From assembly GCA_037043015.1 (NCBI GenBank), contig CM073327.1, forward strand, positions 1,532,727-1,596,726: DNA of 64,000 bases, in the 5' to 3' direction. Positions within the stretch are counted from its first letter, which is position 1. The number at the start of each line of letters is the position of its first letter. Below are positions 43,003 to 60,887 of this stretch, in pieces. A program made the translations under genes and the position numbers. A model generated the notes under the pieces. That model was not told where the DNA came from, did no database searches, and saw only the letters and a program-made list of their open reading frames with translations. The stretch is from Bryum argenteum (taxonomy: Eukaryota > Streptophyta > Bryopsida > Bryales > Bryaceae).

Positions 43003-43371
43003 TTAACCCTTAAATGCCCAAGCAAGCCCGAGGGGCTTGATTCCAACAGAATCTTCTCTGTAGCTCTCAATGTATTCAACTTTTCACTTATATTTTGATG
43101 TCAAACTGGTCACCGTCTTATGATGCATTCAAAAGTGAAATTTTACAATTCAAATCACAATTTGTATGAATGATTTTGTGCTTTGAAAGGATTGTGGTAG
43201 GTAGGTTGGGGTTGTACATAACCTTGTAGGAGGTTGCAAGCTCATCAGTGATTGGTGCATTCATGATGCCCAAGTTCAAAAAGTGCACTATTCATGATGC
43301 CCAAGTCCAAAAGATGTTGTGATCCAATTTTGGGCTGCCCGTTTCACACCCCATGGGCGTTTAAGGGTTAA
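43003..43371. mobile_element. 369-bp TTAA miniature inverted-repeat element, copy A
   Basis: Begins TTAACCCTTAAATGCCC and ends GGGCGTTTAAGGGTTAA, so the ends are inverted and bounded by TTAA. The interior shares long stretches with copies at 46878-47246 and 60289-60887 (for example GGATTGTGGTAGGTAGGTTG and GCTGCCC near the right end). No coding capacity. The TTAA may be a target duplication or part of the inverted repeat; its palindromic form hides which. Both A and B are 369 bp including the two TTAA. Confidence 0.88.
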
Positions 43372-46877: not shown

Positions 46878-47246
46878 TTAACCCTTAAACGGCCTTGTCA
46901 GCCCCTCGGGCTGTTTTCCTGCAGAATCTTCTCTGTAGCTCATTTGATTCTTCACTTTTTGCTTATATTTTTATATCATTGTGGTCACCTTCTTATGATG
47001 CATCCACATAGTAAAATTTCACAATCCAAATCACAATTTGTATGAGAGATATGTGATTTGAAAGGATTGTGGTAGGTAGGTTGGGGTTGCACAAAACCTT
47101 GTAGGAGGTTGCAAGCTCATCATTGATTGGTTCATTCATGATGCCCAAGTTCAAAAAGTGCACTATTCATGATGCCCAAGTCCAAAAGATGCTGAGATCC
47201 AATTTTGGGCTGCCCATTGGGGAGTGGAAGGCCATTTAAGGGTTAA
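46878..47246. mobile_element. 369-bp TTAA miniature inverted-repeat element, copy B
   Basis: Begins TTAACCCTTAAACGGCC and ends GGCCATTTAAGGGTTAA. Same length and interior as copy A with scattered changes and small indels. Orientation is the same as copy A. No coding capacity. Confidence 0.88.
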
Positions 47247-48599
47247 AGTGAGGGCGAATTTGCCCATGTGTAAAGCCGTTGGGGCCGCTTAGTCAAGAAT
47301 GAAAAACAATGTCATGGGGCCAATTTGTATTTCTCATTACAATTGATGATTTTTATTAAACTCTTTTTAAAAATAAATTTTAGTAAATTAAAGTCTTGTA
47401 ATGAAATTAAGAAACTACCCCCAAGTCCATGATTTGGCCCTCCATTCTTGTAGCTTCCAATCTTTGGAGTGCAAGCCTAGTCAAAAAAATTCTCCATCCA
47501 CTAAATGAAATGTTAAAAATACCCTTGACTACTCATGTTAAAACCCTTGAGACCAATTTCAATAAATGAACCATTCACATAAAAAGTTTATGCCATGAAT
47601 TGGCGGATCAATAACTTGGCTTCCTTGTCTAAAGCAACATTTAACCTCTAAAAATCTAGGCGTTTCCTCGACCTCCAGACCAAAAACTGCCATTTTTCAC
47701 CTTCAACACGCAATTAAGCAATTATGCACCCGGCTATTTAAAAGTGCACTTCGGTACTACGATGGCTATTGCTTGCAAAAATGGAATTTTTTATTTTTAA
47801 ACTTGATTTTTTCTGGAAAAAAAGGTGTTTTGCAAAGAATATTGTGTATTGTCAGAAGTGGTAATATAAAAAGACTTCTAATGGCATTGTGAACATATTT
47901 TTGGTATAAATCCATGTGAATAATACAAATATTTTTGTCCAGGGATATTTGAAATGCTTAGTATATGCTACAAATTGTGTAGATTATAGTTAATATATTT
48001 TTGGTGAAAGAAAATGACGCGAGCACCAAACTCTATTAATAAAATTAGGCACCAAATTGTTCCAATGGACATTTAATAAAAATATACTCTATATTGTGCT
48101 TTGTATATATGTCGTAGAAAAGTATCTAAATACACAGATTCTAAACGTATACCAAGTTATGTATATAACTGATAATACAACTAAATTCAACCCATATGTC
48201 CATCGCAACAACACGTCTGAAAATAATCCTTGCAATCTTGTACTATCTAGTACGTATATACACTTAGAAACACCATGTGTACACAAAAACACATGGACTA
48301 CGTACTAATATCTAATGCGGCTTGCAACCGGTCATCGTCGATAGCTTGGGTTTGCATTGCGATATATTCTAATATGTGGGCCTTCGCAGATTGGATAATG
48401 CAAATGTTGCTTGGAACCTGCACTCCAAAGACATTGCGGTTTCTCCCCGACTATGGCCGGACATGATTCTTTCTGTTCGTCCGCCCATGAAAAATACATG
48501 CCTCTTTCTCTATCCAATCGTGATTCTCCCGGATGGCTCCCACAATGAATCCTAACAACAGCATACCGTTGTAAAGAGGATCTCGGTCCGTCAAGAACT

Positions 48600-51501
48600 C
48601 CCCTCGTATGATTGGCCAATACCAACAAACTTTCATCTTGATTTTATTCCGGCCTTTTCCGTCTTCAATCACCTTCCCTAAATAAAATGGAACATCCTCG
48701 TCTACTTACTCACACGATCAACACCGAGGGCTACAAATTGTCCGAAAGGATATCGGATTGAGGATCAAATTGGGAAAAGGATCGTCGATGCCTTCCGATA
48801 CCGCTCTTTCTTCGGTTCCATCAAAGATGTGATCATGCGAGCCGTTCTTTGTGCCCTACGACTTTGCTTGGTTAGGTGGCCTCTCTCTTCGATGACCAAA
48901 GTATCCTCTAGCCTCGAGATTTGGAAGCATCGCCACTATTTGGTCCACAATAGTAATCTCGTGGTTTGATTCATTTCGATCGTCAATAACATCTATTGAT
49001 GCATCTATAGTAGGTGATGTCTCTAATACCTCTGAAGGCCAAAGTCAAGAAGAACTATGCTCGTTGCTACGATCTTTGCTTGGAAATTCGGCTAGGTATA
49101 GTTTCAAATGTTCGGCCTCTCTTTTCGCTTCACCATTTTTTTCCGGATGTTGGAATCTTTGAATGCACCTTTCTTTGTATGCAATAAAGTCATCCAATGC
49201 CTTCAACTCCCTTTCATCAGCAGCAAACACCTTTGCAAACGATGGTCGTTCTTCTTTATTTGGTAGCGACTGCAACGTCTTTGTCCCTAACTCAGGTCCC
49301 CATTTATCCTTGCTATAATGTTTGTGTTGTCTTTCGAACCTTACCGACCCCCTCTCGATTGTCCATATAAAATCGCATGTGGTGCGGAAAGGTTATCTAA
49401 CCAAAGAGTCCCCACCCGTCAGTAAGTGAGGGGTTATGAAGGACTTCCAGTCCCACACATTTTCTAAGAGTCTGGCGCTAACAAACGCCTCTGTTATGGA
49501 TGTACCTTGTTCTATTAGACTAAGCATTTCTTTCAATGAGTCGATGTCCGACCTCTTCAACACATTAGATATACAACTAAAGCGTTGGTCGATATCTTCG
49601 TGTGTATGGCCCACTATAAGGAAAGAGAGCTCCACCTCTTGAAAAAAACCCAATCCCACCAATGAAACACATAGAGCAAAACATGTAAATGTTTTTATTC
49701 TCTCGTGTGCGCTTATCCGCTTGAATACGTAATGTTGGAGGCAAAAAGCGTTTTCTCCTCTTCACATCTCTTATCACGCGTGCAACAATGTCTTTCACCA
49801 CCCTGTTGCTATCGTGTTTGTGGTGCGCGCCGAACCACACATCTCAATATAAACCAATCCCATGTACGAGGGCTCCACACAAATGGGTCTTCACAAACCG
49901 ATCTTTCGATGTTCTTCACGGTTTGACGATTCTCGTACTACCATGGTAGTGTTTTGATCCACGCCATCAACGATGATGCACATGTACAACTCCGGCCGAT
50001 ATAGCACGACCTCTTAAATATCCAATAATCCCTCCGTTCCTCCATCCGAATACGCAGATGCATCATAAACAACTCTTTTATTTTGATCCGAAGCATCTGC
50101 GTTCGTGGTTCCCTCCACGGCACATTTATACTCCCAAAGAAATGATAACACTTTGAAAACCTCGAGAATGGGGTACCGGGCATGAGGATATCCGATGCGC
50201 CACATCCTCCGAACGAGCTAATTGAAATGGTTTCTCCGTTACAAACTCTCTTCACCTCCTCGTTCACGTAATTGAATATATCGACTTCCGAGTATTCACG
50301 GCGAGGAGAATAAGAGGCACCACTTCGTTGTCATCCTTACGAAAAATTGAACGATGAGGTTGAGGACAACCACCGTCCCACAAATGATTTAAATGAGGCC
50401 TCTGCCGCCGACATTCTAGTGCTCTCCCGGCGGGTTTTGAAAGGTCATTCACGTGAATCGCCGCCACTCTTCCATATATATAAACACTCCTTCTTCAATT
50501 TGTTTAAACCGTCTTTGTGAATATCCAATGCCCGAAAGATAACAAGCATTGCAAACTTGTTTGCCATCTAACTTTGTGACAAATTTATCTCGTTGGAAAC
50601 GTTCCGTCCGTGTATAAAAAGAAAGCGGATTTGTCTCATCCAAGATTTTCAATTGCATAAGTAGAAGCCCACGCATTATAACGCATGTCCAATAGATACC
50701 GTTCTTGAATGTCTCTCAAACAATTTTGTTTGCATCCTCCTCGCCCTATTGCCCTTTGCACGCTTAGAAGAGATACCTTTGTAGATATACCTTCTCTAGA
50801 AGATGTCTCCCTGGAATCTCTCGCTTCTTCTATTTTCATATAGAATATGGACGTCGGGCCGCTCGACATGAATAAGCCCATCTACATGGGGCAAATCTCG
50901 GATGTTGGAAGGAGTATTTTGAGAGAATGGAGAGTTTCTCATCTACGGGGTTTGAAGCTATACTCTGCGCCGAGACCTATCAGTGGATCCAGGTGTGTTG
51001 AAGTTGTCATGGAAATCAAATTCTTATGCCAACCTCCGTACAGGTGGCGTTTGAGACCCATTCAATACGTCCTCGCCATTTTGAATGGTGGGTTCCATGG
51101 CTATCGCGACGTAGATAAGACTTGTGCCAACGGATGATCAATCCAACACACATTCCAAGACGCTCTCCCACAATCTCTCCAAATCAACGCAATGCATCGT
51201 CTACCCTAGTGATGCGTCTTTGCCACCTCGGACGGGAATAACTTCGATCCATGCAATTGCGCGCCCCGTTTGAAATGTATACTCCTAGTTGCCAAGCCGA
51301 CAACTTCTTCTTCTTTCGATAACAATTCAAATGTCCTTCCCAATTGAGATGAAATGACGCGAGTAATACCATCTCCAAATCCGCCTTCTGCACGAGTTTG
51401 CTCAGATTAATCGCGCCCCCATCAACCGTTTGGATTAATGACATCGCTTCAGATTGGGTGTTTTGATGTACTAAAGGGATTTGGAAATTGGAGTATCCCA
51501 T
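48600..51501 (-). pseudogene. Decayed transposase-like gene with GHTHEDIDQ motif (DUF7869-type)
   Basis: Pieces in family order on the minus strand: GCKQNCLRDIQERYLLDMRY (cysteine-containing N-terminal motif, near 50.75 kb), LDGKQVCNACYLSGIGYSQR (50.55 kb), RFLPPTLRIQAD...TRENKN (49.75 kb), VELSFLIVGHTHEDIDQRFS (49.63 kb) and a charged C-terminal region to about 49.05 kb. I know this combination from large families of transposase-like proteins in plants, algae, oomycetes and animals, catalogued, I believe, as DUF7869 with an RNase H-like fold. The reading frame is interrupted several times. Role in moving the element is inferred, not shown. Confidence 0.6.
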
Positions 51502-52827
51502 TGTCGTTGTTGAACTAATAGGAACCTATACATTGCAAACATGTGAAAATATGTGTGTAAGCGATAGAAAATATCATTCATTCAAACGAACATATATTCT
51601 AGGACATAAATTTTTGCTTCCAAACATGATTGTTAATGTTGGTTACTAAGTTCGAATGATATTGTATATAATTGTTAAGATTGTTTAAAGTTGTTAAATT
51701 ACTTAGGATTATCTTGTGTACTTTATTTATATATAAATTAACGGTTTATCTACCTCTACAAACCTGTGTTGGATAAAATAATACAATGCTAAGTTTTGAT
51801 TACATGGAAATAACAATAATCATGTTTGATACCTTGTCCAAGACTATGTTACACCTTAGGAATTGGATTGTTTGCGTTCATAATACATTGCTAAAAATCG
51901 TTGATTGAAATAAAAAAGACAATGACAACATGAAATGGCGTCAATTTACTTTGTACCTATGGCAATTTCTATTATAAATCCTACATCATGCTTTGAGCGT
52001 GCATAAAACCACAAAGATGGTGGTATTGTTTAGGATAAAGGAATAATTATTGCAATGACAATGATTATAGAAAGTTACAACTTACTTATAGGTTCAATTA
52101 AATTTGCAAGAAAAATAATATTTGCAATATTCATTGTATGATCTATTATCATAGCGATGGATAGAATTATCATGTGTTCTTGTATGAATGCAATATATTA
52201 TTGTTTGGAAAATATGGTAATTTTTGACTTTAACTTTAACTCCTACTACATTATAAAATTGAAAGTTGAATAAAACTTGCAATCAATGATTCAATTGCAC
52301 TCAAGTAGGAACAAAGTTTTATAGAAGAACAAAAAATATTAAATCAAATTGGAACTAAATTATTCCCACCTCAATGAGTTAGCTTTATAGGGCTTAGAAC
52401 CAAGTGGTGTTCACACCACATGTCCATTCTTAGACATGCTCTTCAATAGATGTAAAATATATAGACCTGGAAACATACAACAAATAAACCGGAATTTAGC
52501 AATGCAAACACTTGTGCGTTAGAGATTATTCAACTAGTAACTTACATTTTGAGTCATCTTGGAATTTGAAAGAAAAAAATAAATAAATAAATTTCATTTT
52601 CAAATCAATTTTAAGAATTAAAAAAATGATTCACAACATACAACAAAATTTCAAGAATTTAGTGAAACAATAACTTGTAGATTACATTATTTAGCCTTCT
52701 ACTAAAATCATTCAATTGTTTTCATAATTATAGAAAGTTTTTAAAAAACTAACATACAACAAAATTGCTATAATACAATAAAAAAATACCTTTGATTAGA
52801 CATCCTCAACTAAAAATGACATTATTT

Positions 52828-52831
<4 letters not shown>

Positions 52832-52861
<30 letters not shown>
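52832..52861. repeat. 30-nt poly(A) tract
   Basis: An uninterrupted A run on the plus strand that directly abuts the left arm of the foldback repeat. Confidence 0.98.
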
Positions 52862-52866
<5 letters not shown>

Positions 52867-53015
52867 GGTGGTAGAGGTGTTCGCACACACCAGCCCTGCC
52901 TTGTTTGGCGGGGTGGCCTGCCAGCCATGGCGGCGCTTGTCGCCGCGCAGTAGCCAGGCCACCCGCCAAAGAAGCAGGGCAGGGTGCCCGGCGAACACCT
53001 CTACCACCTCCTCTC
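52861..53015. repeat. 155-bp GC-rich foldback (inverted repeat)
   Basis: The outer 24 bases of the two arms are an exact inverted pair (AGAGGAGGTGGTAGAGGTGT then TCGC). Inner segments CCCTGC, TTTGGCGGG and TGGCCTG also pair, giving arms of about 65 bp around a short centre. The GC content stands out against the AT-rich surroundings. It could form a long hairpin. Next to the poly(A) it may be a small inserted element. Confidence 0.85.
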
Positions 53016-53063
53016 TTTTTTTCCATCCGACCTCCCCGCTCGATCTTCTTCCGCACACTTTGC

Positions 53064-53205
53064 GCTTTCTTCCTCCTCTCCCCCGCTTGCTCGTGTTTTT
53101 GAAGGTCGTTGTTGCTGCTTTCTTCCTCCTCCGCTCTTGCTCGTGTTTACGCAGTTGCTATTGCCTTTTCTTCCTCCTCCGCTCTTGCTCGTGTTTCTCA
53201 AGAAC
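53064..53205. repeat. Three imperfect copies of a CTTCCTCCTCCGCTCTTGCT unit
   Basis: Copies near 53067, 53122 and 53173, each followed by CGTGTTT, spaced about 50 bp. They give a Ser/Leu/Pro-rich frame without known function. Confidence 0.7.
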
Positions 53206-54861
53206 GCTGCTAGGACGATCTGTAGAGCACTAGGAGAGTTTCGTGACTTGTTGCAACCAAAAATATTTTTGCCGATTCTCCTTATCGCTTCTTTTTGTTG
53301 TCTTCAAATCGCCGCTGGCTTTAGTACCGAATCGCATTTGCTATTGTACCGGATCGCCGCTTTCTTTGTTGCTATCGAATCGATGCTTGCTACTTGCGAT
53401 CTTGTTGCTATTCCTCATTGCTATCACCTGGTATTGTTGCTCTTTGTTGCGGCGTGCATTTTGGGTTCTTGTTCGCTCTTGTGACAGAGTGCGCTACTAT
53501 TCAAGTTGTCCACTTTGTACTCGATATGTTAAAATCTTCGTCTTCCTCCCTTCATCCTCTTTGTGGTCTTTGTTGCGGCCATGCAAACACACCACCAAAG
53601 CCACCAAAAATCCTAATCTTAAAACCTTAAACCCTAAAAAATTTAAAAATCTTTTAAAAATACAAATAATAAAAAAATTAGCGAGAGATTGCAAGGGTGT
53701 GTGCGCGCACACCCACCCTCAAAACAATCAACCAAGTGAACTCCAATAAACATCCCATTTACTATATTAAAGCCATTTCAAACGTCTGATACCCGCCTAT
53801 GAGGGATACCCGCCCATATTGATACCCGTCATACATTATAGTTACTTGCTTAAGAACAAGAAAAATGAAAACATTTAGCAACACATGATAGTAAAAATAT
53901 TAATGTAGATATTGTAGAACTAACATCTTTCACATACAGTCGTTTGAGACTAAAAAATATTACCTTCTTTTACGATTCCAAATTTCTAAAATTGTCTTCA
54001 CTGTAAAAAGAGCATTTAACCCCAGTCAAACGTGTTCACACATTTTGGTCAAGGGAAAGAAAAAAAATACTATTTTCTACATAAAACCTATAGATCTTCA
54101 TTTAATTTTTTATTTTTTTTCTAGCGAAAATTTTATGTGATAAATAAATTCTTATCAATCATTTTGGATTTTCATTCTAAAGCATGTTGAGTTCACAAAA
54201 GATTAAAATGTGGCATAAAATTTTGTCAAATAATTTCAATCTCGATCCTTTGTATATTTGTTTTGAATATGCTACACACCTTTTCCATGTCTAGAAATTG
54301 GTTTTAAGGTAACCAACATGATCATGCCAATCATGATTTTAAAGAAGTTAGACCTTGTATAGTGAATTTTTTTTTAAGCCAAGTGAAATTAAAGTGTCTT
54401 AGACCACTAAATACAATTAAGCAAATGAATTATTCTTATGATTTCAAATGCTATAATATTTTAATCCTTCCGATGCATAGTAGCCTAAAAATTTGGTGGC
54501 TTTATATCAATGTTTATTTTAAGATTCTAGGATTAGAAGTCTTAAATTTCACTCTAAAACTAGATTTTGAAGCCACTTTTTGATAGTGATGATTTGAAGT
54601 GTTTCTTGAAGAATAATGGCCTAGGCTTTTCGGGGCTAAAGAGTCGTCAATCATAAAACAACTTCCACATGGAGTCATATTAGAATCAAAACAAACAAAA
54701 TGGCCTATGTTTGTCTATATTCACATGAACCATGTGGTCGGATGGTGAATTTTGGTATAAGTTATCAATATTTTATTGAATAGAAATCAAAACAATTGTC
54801 AAATAGACTCTAAATTACACCATATTAACCATTATGATATTGTGTTCCAATGATGATCAGG

Positions 54862-57800
54862 TTGCCATGCCTCGCAACGTCGGAACCAACCGCAAAATCG
54901 ACAAGGCATGGGAGAAGCGGGATGGTGGATTGTAGAAGAGGACCCCTCAAAGCCTTATTTGTGGATGACGCACCAACCTTTTAAAATAAGGGACCGTACG
55001 TCAGCGTTAGGCAAGCGTTTTGGCGAGATTCAAGCAATTACTACCCGCCCATCGTCTGACATGATATATGTGATGTGTGTCCCTGATGCTGATGAAGCAA
55101 TGCAGAAGACTTCTCTGTCGAGACAGCTTCTTCTTGCATCCATTCCGGAATCTTTGCTTGCAGTTAAGGTCCGTGAAATTTCTCAATACCTTGCGAAATT
55201 TTTGTCAATATCGCTCCCGCATGATGCGTACGCGGCGCAGGAGAGCATATGTCACATTGTCTAGGGTTATCGCGGGAGGATGTGCGCGCGCAATGGTTCT
55301 TATGGATGCCCATATTAAGACGAAGCATTACTAGAGGCGGATCCAACACATGCAACATCACAAGGTCCACCACCAACTGAACCAGGAAGAGACGGATCCA
55401 ATTCACCGTAGTTATGTTATTGGAAGTGAGTTGGATTACTGGCCACCCTTCAATGGATTGCACAATCTGTGCCCGTCCGAGATCGCGACTCTTTCGAGCC
55501 GCTGTAGGAAGTGTTCCTCATGTGGAAGAGGACGTCCTTCAAAGCGCCCACGACGTGAAGAGGCGACATAGCATCCGGTTCGGTGGACGATCGTCGAATG
55601 TGGCTCTGGTGGTGCGAGGTCAACGGACGAGGATCGAGGGCGCGTGGTAGGGGTAGTGGGTCTACAACCATGAGGTTCTGACTCGGCGTGGAGCATCTCC
55701 GCATATGTACCGAGTTCTTGGCTGAATGTATCGGCGGTGGAGGGCGAGTTTGAAAATGTCGGACCGGGGAAGAAGAGGATTGATCGGAACCGAGGATGGC
55801 GTTGGAGGCCTCAACGTCAAGTAAGTTCCTAGCACCGATACCTCTTGAAGCGAAATGCGAAAGGATCACTATGGGGGGACATTGTATTCGAGGTGAAGAT
55901 CGACAAGATTATCCAGTGGAGAGTCCTTTGACAAACCATCGGTCTCTCTCTGCGAAAGAGAGTTAGAGAGGTTTATGACTTTATGAGACATCCGGAGAAC
56001 AAGACTTGTGTGAGCAAGTTGGTTCTTCGTCCGATCAAGATACATTGTGGATGTCACTCTTGACGATGGTGTGGTTCGGCGAGAAGAGGTGTCATTCCCC
56101 CGAAAGAGCACAACGAGAGTTCCAACGCATATTTGATCACACGGATTAGCGTCTATTCACGGTACAACACACTCTCGATTGTGTTGGCTTGAGAGGATCA
56201 TTTGGGAGCCAGTGGATGGGCCAAGACATAGTTGCGGCCTGCAATTTTTGCGAAGGAAGAGGTTGCCCAACACAAACTCTCACATCTTGAGTTTGTTAAC
56301 ATCTTTGAAACGCGGGAGGCAACATTTGTCGTATCGATGATCATGCATTGTCTTAGCGAAGTCCGCGGGTCAATAAGAAGGAATGGAATAGGACAAAATA
56401 TTCCACCATGGATGAGGACTTGAGAAAGCTACGCGAGATTTGGGAGTTGTATGGGAGGCCGATAGATAGCTTGGTTCGTGCGGAGACGATGAACGCAGGG
56501 CTAAAGCTCTGGTGTGTGCGGCTAATCGATCTGAAGAACCTTGTTGAGGGCAACAAAGGTATAACAATCAAGAGGTTGGCAAAGCGGATGCGTGACTTGA
56601 CCATTCATGCGCGTGGAATCCTCGGCGCGAGTGTTACGAAGCTATCCTTCAAGTGTGCAAGACTACGAAGATGGCTATCTCTTTTATAGCAAGGAAGAGG
56701 AGAAGAAGTGGAAGGCGTTTGCAGACAAGAACAACCTAGATCCTCTCTGTGGATGTACGGGAGCGTCGGAAGCGAATGACCGTGAATTGGTTGAGGCCGC
56801 TCAATGTGGTTCCACGATCTGCTTATCTACGGCTAGTCAAGTCTTGTGCGGCTAAGCCGGTGGGGAGGACAATCGCAGACCTCGACAATCATATTACTTT
56901 CACGCCATCAAGGATGCGTCTAGGGATCCCGTACTATGCGGTGCGATTGACCGGATCATGAGACAAGAAGCGGTCGCTAATATCACTCGTTGGTTAATGG
57001 TGTCCAACAAAGAGCGCTCACCTAATTCCATGAAAGAGTTCTTCCACATATCTCATGCGGAATTATTTTCCCGGGGCAAGGAAGCAAATTGATGCATTTG
57101 GCAAGGACTTGGCCAAAGACACAAAAGCCGCATGGGCTAAACCTACACGAGAGAAGGTGTCCAGTTGGCGGACATAAGTGAACTTATTCCCACCTCCATC
57201 AAGTTCACTATCGGACATTGCAAAAGAAACACATGGAGAAGTGGAAGCATCGGCGAGATGAAGGTGGTGCCACTCCGTCGCGTGGAAGTGGGTGTTCTGA
57301 AGTTCGAAGGCCAACTCGCATCAAGTCACACCATATCATCTTATGGTTCGAGCTTGGAAGGATTATTTCATCCTGATGTCAGTGATTGACACAATCGTCT
57401 TGTGGGTTGTTGATTGTCGGCGTGGTGGAGGAAGGCGTGGAGACGGTCGCTTGGGAAGAAGAAGCGATTCACCAAAGTTATTGCACAATTGTCAGCGTGG
57501 ATGACGGGCGTTGAACGATGGAACAAGATTCTCTTTACCACCACCGTGTTCTTGCCGAGTTGTTCGCGGCTCAAACTTCCCGGTGGTGGCACTCAACGAC
57601 ATGGATGTTGGGCATTTGGCGCAAACTCGGTTGATCGAAGATCTGCCTCAACTTTCACGGGGTGGTCGATTCTGACAAGCGGTGGAACCATTTGGAGGTG
57701 TTGTTGTTCATATGCAACACCCTGCTGATACTTCCCCAACCGTAATTATGTTTAAGGGACCGTCGATGCACACTTGTATTTCACGATCAATGGAGTGAGA

Positions 57801-58522
57801 CACATCAACCGTCGGAGGGTGATAGACTCGGCGATCGCCATCCGAGCTCTCTCTAGACTAGTGGATGCGTATTTGCCAATTGGTTGGGGTTTGGTGCGTA
57901 TAACATTACAACGGCCATTCCGACAATCCTTCATGGAGGTTTCCGTGGATCGGAGATCATTGTCATTGACGATAGCCTGGAAAGGCTAAACTTCTTGTAT
58001 ACAAAGTTGTTTGACAACTTCCAATGACAATTTCAGATCCTCGAGATGACAGTGCAACAAGGAGCACCACGTTTGGCATTTCGAGGTGAAGATCCGATGA
58101 ACATAGGTTCAGAGGAAGGCGGTAGTGACGAGGACGAGCTTGGAGATGAAGCGGATACTTCTATTCCAGCACCATACACATTGGCAAATGTACGACAGCC
58201 GCGTGAGTATGACACAAATGTACCCTCGCCTGATCATAACTCATGTGACGACGGGCTTCATTCGTCTGTGGAACCTAATGGCTTTGAGGAAGGATCAGAG
58301 ATACCAGAGGTGGTTCTAGATACTCCAATTCAAACGAGACCAATGGTGCCATCCATTCTACAATCTACGGAATCAGCGGACACCATAGCTTTCAACGAGG
58401 CCTTTGCACCAATGATGACATTTAGAGACGGCTTCTACTATAACACCGATGGCATAAGGTACACTCGCCACGGTGAGCCGAAGCGATTCTGCGTCGAGAG
58501 AGAGTCAATCCATCATCCTTGA
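54862..58522 (+). pseudogene. Second decayed coding region of the 11.8-kb element, family unresolved
   Basis: GC-richer, codon-like DNA running rightwards in changing frames. It opens PRNVGTNRKIDKAWEKRDGG, passes through charged stretches such as LRKLREIWELYGRP at about 56.42 kb, and ends with an acidic tail (EDPMNIGSEEGGSDEDELGD, 58.09 kb on). I do not recognise a domain with confidence. The acidic end with a DPMNIG motif recalls the C-terminus of some hAT transposases, but no dimerisation motif is seen. It may be the partner gene of the transposase-like region at 48.6-51.5 kb. Confidence 0.4.
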
Positions 58523-59413
58523 TTCTATTGATCCCCGTGTCGGCGGGCGGCGGTGGATCGTATGGTACATGAGGCCTATGAAGCGACTGCGGTAGGACAA
58601 TGGAGGAGGATGATTAGAGCATCGAGATTTATAAGTAGCAAGTCAATATGATGTTTAGGTGGCATGTTAGGTTTGATTGATATGTTTGAGTAAAGTATGA
58701 GATGTTTGGTTATAGTATTATGCATGTTATATTATAGTATTTACTATCGATTCCTAAAGACGTTTATGAATTTTATGTATGGATTTTCATATAATATAGA
58801 GCGAGATGCTACATATTTTCTCGTTGAATAGCACATGTTGGCCTTTTATCTCTTATAAAGTATGTCTATTGTATAAATGCCAAAAATAGTATATAAATGT
58901 CATATAGCAATGTACAACGTAGAAGTTCATAATCAAAATTGCATTGAATCTAAAAAAGAAACACTATAGGAAGTTCAAGGACAAAATTGAATCTTTGAAA
59001 TTCTTTAAATTTCAATTTTGCACTCCAAGACGTGACGTTGTCCTTCATATTGATCCATTGGGATTTGTATTCCAAAAATTTATATGGTACACAAAATAAT
59101 AAAATAGATGTTGGCAATATTTGAATATAATAATTTGGTAGTATTTACAAAGCAATAAAACATGATTTAGCAACAAATTTGTTATTAAAAAAATACTATT
59201 TCTCGTTAGTTTAAGTTTAGTGCCTCCACATTTAAATTTTTTTTTTTGTGTGGAATTTTTGTTGTTTTTTTTCATTTTGGAGGAAAATGTTGTTGTTTTG
59301 ACATGCCATTGAGTGCACTTGGCAAAGTGCATAATTGCTTAATTGCGTGTTTTATGTAATTGGGTTGTCAAAGTTGAAAAGATGTTCTTAATCGGCAAGA
59401 TCTTAAGGTTTAA

Positions 59414-60288: not shown

Positions 60289-60887
60289 TTAACCCTTAAC
60301 CCTTAAAGGTCTGAGAGTGCCGTGGCGACCAGTAGAATACGGTGTATTTTGGTTGTATTTGGAGTGAATACACACCTTCAATGGGTTTGAGTTCAAAGAA
60401 GAAGTTGACATTTGAATTAATGCGGTCCTAGTGAGCTATTACGATTCCAATTTAGAGTTTCTTGTTGGTAGCAAATCCTAATCATACGACAGCGTACATA
60501 CTATCCCCAAGGGACTTTTAAGGGTTAAACACCCAAGCAAGCCCGAGGGGCTTGATTCCAACAGAATGTGCTCTGTAGCTCTCACTGTAATCAACTTCTG
60601 ACTTATATTTTGGTGCCAAACTGGTCACCATCTTGTGATGCATTCAAAAAGTGAAATTTTACAATTCAAATCACAATTTGTAAGTATGATTTTATGGTTT
60701 GAAGGGATTGTGGTAGGTAGGTTGGGGTTGTACATAACCTTGTAGGAGGTTGCAAGCTCATCATTGATTGGCTCATTCATGGTGCCCAAGTTCAAAAAGT
60801 GCACTATTCATGATGCCCAAGTCCAGAAGATGCTGTGATCCAATTTTGGGCTGCCCGTTTTAGACCCCATGGGCGTTTAAGGGTTAA
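60289..60887. mobile_element. 369-bp-type TTAA miniature element, copy C, interrupted by another element
   Basis: The right end GGGCGTTTAAGGGTTAA (to 60887) and the interior match copies A and B. At the left the first bases TTAACCC (60289-60295) are separated from the continuing ACACCCAAGCAAGCC by a 233-bp TTAA element (60296-60528). Removing that element together with one TTAA restores the left end expected from copies A and B. Confidence 0.78.
60296..60528. mobile_element. 233-bp TTAA miniature element nested in copy C
   Basis: TTAACCCTTAAAGGTC at the left and, inwards from the right, TTAACCCTTAAAAGTC. Its interior does not match the 369-bp family. It is inserted at the TTAA of copy C, with TTAA on both sides, which supports TTAA as the target sequence. 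Confidence 0.72.

Follow-up and report, generated by a model that had tools for sequence, protein, structure and literature searches.

The element and its borders

The window analysed here, a stretch of 64,000 bp from the moss Bryum argenteum (C7:1532727-1596726), harbours at positions 47705-59351 a full-length but decayed copy of a large element (11,647 bp). This copy carries two decayed genes that point outwards, each broken into several frames: a gene of the DUF7869 family, which is the candidate transposase (48332-51525, minus strand), and a partner gene (54857-58617, plus strand). They are separated by an AT-rich centre (51526-54856), which is probably the promoter region shared by both genes. 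The initial annotation of this locus, made from the sequence alone, had already described two decayed and divergent genes, and the divergent partner is real. As will be argued below, the element very probably belongs to a family of large DNA transposons with terminal inverted repeats (TIRs) that has been active recently.

The element is bounded by a perfect inverted pair of 25 bp, AACACGCAATTAAGCAATTATGCAC, found at 47705-47729 (plus strand) and, with no mismatch, at 59327-59351 (minus strand), which is the block repeated 11.6 kb apart that had first drawn attention to the locus. The inverted similarity had been thought to extend outwards to TTAA ends, giving an element at 47642-59413. When each end is used to search the complete genome (258.8 Mb, 25 contigs), this is not borne out: the alignments to other copies stop at the 25-bp block on both sides. 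Outside the left block, 39 non-self scored matches start 0-12 bp out (1,009 first-look candidates) and, outside the right block, 39 start 0-24 bp out (159 first-look candidates); furthermore, the outer flanks of the 44 ends that were compared are all different. Within the element, the identity from end to end ceases after exactly 25 bp in the five pairs compared. The block is therefore the terminus and the element spans 47705-59351, which the earlier coordinates overshoot by 62-63 bp at either end.

The exact 25-mer occurs at 115 sites of the genome (56 + 59), and its backward-read control at none. Among the 100 sites listed, 28 facing pairs lie less than 25 kb apart, the window included, and close neighbours in other orientations are absent. 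The search for pairs at a spacing similar to that of the window copy returned 21 pairs of 11.5-11.9 kb, accompanied by one of 10.7 kb, one of 13.0 kb and five of 2.4-4.6 kb that look like derivatives by internal deletion. The concern that the block might be a repeat dispersed singly across the genome is answered by the 28 facing pairs, although the remaining 44 of the 100 listed sites have no exact partner nearby. Inverted ends therefore border many dispersed copies, as in TIR DNA transposons. One of them (C1:22535775-22547657) is collinear with the window copy; their identity is 94-96% in each of the three longest blocks and falls to 89% in a central block of 346 bp.

Target duplications, empty site and flanking repeats

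Target sites were read immediately beyond the two ends in pairs of the subfamily to which the window copy belongs (subfamily A). Eighteen end pairs were noted, of which 16, picked for good scores at both ends, were fetched, the short C3:2804271 and C11:3714803 being omitted. All 16 chosen pairs are flanked on both sides by the same 4 bp, which are never TTAA, and none matches when 5 bp are compared. For subfamily A overall, this gives 16 copies out of 18 with a 4-bp duplication, the two misses being C5:21304871-21317821 (TAAA/AAAA) and the window copy, whose left target site CTTC (47701-47704, plus strand) is unequal to TTAT on the right (59352-59355). In a second subfamily (subfamily B), six of seven pairs display a matching 4-bp duplication, C8:5732693-5739678 being the miss. 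Hence 22 of the 25 copies examined in two subfamilies have a target duplication of fixed length and varied sequence.

An empty site could be read for one insertion. The copy C4:25143176-25154860 sits inside a dispersed repeat and, when its flanks are joined with a single TATA, all 40 scored places (126 candidates) match straight across the junction. The four empty-site paralogs that were fetched all read CAACTATAA, i.e. CAAC followed by a single TATA, and differ by a few bases from the filled copy to the right of TATA. The left junction is thus exact, and the right one is exact within the divergence of the repeat.

Two copies of subfamily A (L029 and L035) are 98.8% identical over 3,073 bp and have different duplications (TTTT vs ATTT), which indicates separate recent insertions. 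Different flanks are also found in two nearly identical pairs from other groups (L010/L013, 98.9%; L009/L011, 99.4%). A near-identical pair with common flanks, L016/L018, is a segmental duplicate (C6, 19.70 and 19.67 Mb), in which a copy of the subfamily-B DUF7869 gene was carried along with its flank. This pair is what would be expected if the family had not transposed but were a purely structural or domesticated repeat multiplied by segmental duplication. For the family as a whole, this explanation is refuted by the varied flanks with exact 4-bp duplications and by the empty site, and it retains practically no credit. Duplications, empty site and paired ends together support the mobility that had been suspected for an element bearing DUF7869.

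The flanks of the window copy also decide the fate of the proposed TTAA borders. The stretch 47641-47704 (plus strand) is not part of the element: it is the first 64 bp of another high-copy repeat, beginning with TTAACC, that the element interrupts. Indeed, when the joined window flanks are used as a query, TTAACCTCTAAA at 47641 is seen to open another dispersed repeat, as 38 of the 40 scored matches (894 first-look candidates; the other two are the window itself) cover 47641-47704, and 30 of these 38 start within 4 bp of 47641. After CACCTTC, the five fetched copies of the interrupted repeat read GTTGGG (four) or ATTGGG (one), and the right flank of the window copy, TTATGTAATTGG, is not a continuation of it. 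The element thus interrupted the TTAA repeat. In this copy, its right side would subsequently have been fused to other DNA, unless the copy is a recombinant; either event would explain the missing duplication. The window copy therefore looks rearranged. The best local alignment between the two 70-bp outer flanks has a score of 13. Of 2000 shuffles, 120 do as well, and so do 44 of 3000 pairs drawn at random from the window; the inverted similarity claimed for these flanks is thus weak.

Small TTAA elements are nevertheless real and common here. Short stretches with inverted TTAACCCTTAAA ends at 43003-43371, 46878-47246 and 60296-60887 constitute a separate family of TTAA mini-elements, and the pattern TTAACCNNTAAAN{0,5}TTAA has 320 occurrences in the genome vs 149 in a backward control. 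The initial annotation had suggested that the large element could be their parent; on this reading, it would be a TTAA-duplicating (piggyBac- or Kolobok-like) transposon with TTAA-CC..TAAA ends. The excess of TTAACCNYTAAA-like motifs in the window (22 vs 3.45 expected) and the presence of one such motif 64 bp outside the left end speak for it, but the TTAA flanks are not common to other copies, and the TTAA on the left belongs to the start of another dispersed repeat. Moreover, piggyBac and Kolobok are TIR DNA transposons that duplicate TTAA, whereas the 22 matching duplications found here are varied 4-bp sequences, none of which is TTAA. TTAA borders are rejected on these grounds, together with the end of the copies at the 25-bp block and the weak similarity of the flanks. 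A TTAA-duplicating parent is thus very improbable: the mini-elements are a different family from the two-gene element, and the TTAA repeats are separate DNA into which it inserts. As to whether DUF7869 genes are regularly enclosed by TTAA ends, they are repeatedly enclosed by inverted ends, in both subfamilies A and B, but without TTAA duplications.

The DUF7869 gene, its partner and the other subfamilies

The membership of the first gene in the GHTHEDIDQ (DUF7869) family, recognised in the initial annotation, is confirmed by matches of two window frames to the PF25273 profile (E 9e-25 and 3e-9) above the curated cut-off. At the DNA level, this gene is 95.5% identical to copy L035. A first look at the genome gave 1,808 candidates, and the 150 that were scored yielded 151 DUF7869 matches, with E down to 1e-56. 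Among the 150 listed, 17 possess a stop-free open frame of at least 950 amino acids (aa). Open relatives of the window gene reach about 1,100 aa; the protein has about 1,000-1,100 aa. The ratio of non-synonymous to synonymous substitution rates (dN/dS) is 0.15-0.30 in nine pairs.

When 17 DUF7869 proteins are aligned (numbering of L091), D583, D623, D625, N584, N589, K590, N591 and H619 are invariant in all of them, and D501 and D504 in all 16 sequences that reach these positions. The aspartates are spaced by 82, then by 40 or 42 residues. With the third motif as search pattern, four more distant relatives were retrieved from metagenome-assembled contigs; these also have an aspartate at the positions of D501, D583, D623 and D625. 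The aspartates form a DDD-like pattern and could be catalytic. The last approximately 150 residues of L091 contain conserved F-V-A ... G-K-V ... W-Y motifs that recall chromatin-reader domains by eye; Pfam searches with L022 and L038, related proteins that span this C-terminal stretch, returned DUF7869 alone.

DUF7869-like frames were also seen in four of 84 contigs retrieved with the GHTHxDID pattern from bacterial and archaeal assemblies (L124:893-3781, L164:2470-3681, L179 and L180:1184-1720), L124 being filed as a cyanobacterium and L164 as Bacteroidetes; they likely correspond to eukaryotic contamination. Searches for viral relatives of DUF7869 or of the partner found none, and searches of the literature for DUF7869 and GHTHEDID found no text.

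Relatives of the partner gene reach 1,381-1,411 aa in open frames, and its dN/dS is 0.24-0.29 (six pairs). The low ratios indicate purifying selection on both genes, hence constraint on both proteins during the spread of the family. The two genes are also linked: for 36 of the 86 partner places, a listed DUF7869 match occurs within 25 kb, in divergent orientation for 35 of them, whereas 500 shifts gave 2.4 such places on average and 7 at most. For this count, 92 and 54 rows were merged by hand into the 86 places, 150 of the 151 DUF7869 matches were used, and the shift control relied on a guessed length for contig 11.

Searches of Pfam, NCBIfam, PHROGs, PADLOC and PDB sequences for a family of the partner, as well as tblastn in phages and plasmids, gave nothing convincing; below the cut-offs, a shortened stretch weakly matches DUF6544 (0.0009) and an alpha/beta-hydrolase-like domain (0.014), the latter being matched at 0.005 in another search. 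By eye, the partner displays a ParB-like W-E-P-x-D-G-Q-H-x-x-x-A-C-K motif followed by a degenerate DNA-methyltransferase-like stretch, a ParB or methyltransferase reading that no profile search made here supports.

The two-gene layout is found beyond subfamily A. The ends of subfamily B, AACACARTATTGAGGAAAACCGC, have 39 exact sites in the genome (control 0), and five of its seven pairs are 13-18 kb long. In one of its elements (C2:11845600-11861624, 16 kb), DUF7869 lies at one end and an open frame of the partner, at least 833 aa long, at the other, in divergent orientation. As the layout is divergent in both subfamilies, it would predate their split, having been observed in one subfamily-B element. 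Between A and B, the partners are 29% identical over 732 columns (E 1e-87) and the DUF7869 proteins 41% identical. A 1.8-kb pair of subfamily-B ends (C10:523786-525589), flanked by the duplication ATTA, is probably a non-autonomous derivative. In two other groups, the DUF7869 copies have ends that read AACACA... and AACACTCRATTC..., and the two copies of a fourth DUF7869 group read AACACCTGCTTC and TTCACCTGCTTC, respectively; in the last two groups, the end adjoining the DUF7869 gene alone was read. The ends read AACAC in three subfamilies.

These comparisons bear on which of the two proteins would be the enzyme. It is improbable that the roles are reversed, with the partner as transposase and DUF7869 as its accessory. 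In favour of this reading, the partner gene, like DUF7869, is constrained and still open in some copies, and the two are linked, but the invariant D...D...D pattern belongs to DUF7869, which is also the better conserved between A and B (41% vs 29%) and has, in six of its nine pairs, a dN/dS below those of all six partner pairs. DUF7869-like frames are also present in metagenome-assembled contigs, where linkage to a partner is not judgeable.

Other features of the window copy lie near its ends and in its centre. The subterminal palindrome GTGCAC occurs at 47744-47749 and, at the opposite end, at 59313-59318; these two sites are weak candidates for binding of the enzyme, as the element has two yet the remaining window has 11 more. 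The AT-rich centre includes, at 52832-53022, about 30 consecutive A and then a 32-nt inverted repeat (52853-52884/52991-53022) around a GC-rich stretch. As this feature is partly shared with copy L083, it is old in the family. An Rfam search of the window gave no match. The genome itself contains 57 matches to GRAS genes, which were found in none of 14 control genomes, as suits a land plant.

Interpretation and comparison with known systems

Globally, the data are best explained if the window harbours one member, decayed and rearranged, of a large family of two-gene TIR DNA transposons that was active recently, with DUF7869 most likely a DDD transposase and the partner an accessory protein, a reading to which we give a probability of about 0.85. 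Transposition would be by cut-and-paste. The DUF7869 protein, as a DDD-type (RNase H-like) enzyme, would bind the ends, cut the element out and join it to a target with a 4-bp stagger, leading to the 4-bp duplications. The partner would be a required accessory protein involved in end binding, targeting or protection.

Several points weigh against this interpretation. Choosing 16 pairs by strong scores at both ends favours intact insertions. In the window copy, the target sites on the two sides do not match and the interrupted repeat is not resumed on the right, so that the insertion of this copy is not directly readable. A DUF7869 relative from a metagenome contig was modelled poorly (mean predicted local distance difference test score, pLDDT, of 48), and Foldseek against PDB returned no match at E <=0.001; to our knowledge, no enzyme activity has been described for DUF7869. 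Fifty of the 86 partner places have no DUF7869 within 25 kb among the matches listed, a count that says little. Finally, the partner could in principle be the catalyst.

These results give a Pfam domain of unknown function a likely job, and the precisely mapped borders, the target size and the empty site make a catalytic assay possible. For genome annotation, copies of the element should not count as host genes. The partner, constrained and conserved yet of no recognised family, is interesting in its own right. Should DUF7869 be the Sola transposase, the Pfam and transposon catalogues could be joined; should it not, the family would be a new superfamily.

Among known systems, EnSpm/CACTA elements are also large, with two genes and short TIRs, but they have CACTA/G-type ends and a 3-bp duplication, whereas the elements described here have AACAC ends and 4-bp duplications. 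The Sola1/2/3 superfamily was reportedly established by Bao et al. in 2009. Several of its properties fit. Sola elements encode a DDD transposase, generate 4-bp duplications, and are 2-9 kb long (some >15 kb) with TIRs of 11-1124 bp; according to the passages available, they are present in the moss Physcomitrella and seemingly uncommon in flowering plants (PMC10741241). Sola1 of Physcomitrella is tabulated, as is Capsicum (PMC9033089), and passages of other papers name Sola groups with counts and sizes (PMC4455052, PMC10294476); the word Sola is absent from PMC9985172. Like Sola as defined in these passages, the present family duplicates 4 bp of target, and its 25-bp TIRs and element sizes fall within the published ranges (PMC10741241). 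Where Sola has a DDD transposase, DUF7869 has invariant aspartates at three places, and the fold model of its relative was poor.

A new superfamily distinct from Sola, with a DUF7869 enzyme, an obligatory partner of about 1,400 aa and AACAC ends, is a tentative alternative. The partner has no convincing relative in Pfam, NCBIfam, PHROGs, PADLOC or PDB, and the two-gene layout is kept between subfamilies whose partners share 29% identity. The 4-bp duplications, DDD-like enzyme, size and presence in a land plant nevertheless match Sola, as far as the passages available describe it (PMC10741241, PMC9033089). A more specific version, in which a separate eukaryotic superfamily would consist of a DUF7869 DDD enzyme travelling with its divergent partner of about 1,400 aa, whose ParB- and methyltransferase-like stretches would mark or protect the element, is rather unlikely.

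The Sola passages available do not mention an outward two-gene layout with a partner of about 1,400 aa, and the likeness is one of description, not of sequence; on that description, our best guess is that the family should be filed in the Sola superfamily or as its sister group. With respect to PF25273, the DUF7869 gene is a clear member of a family whose Pfam name states no function, and the two-gene element family described here ties it to transposition, through its association with defined ends and 4-bp duplications.

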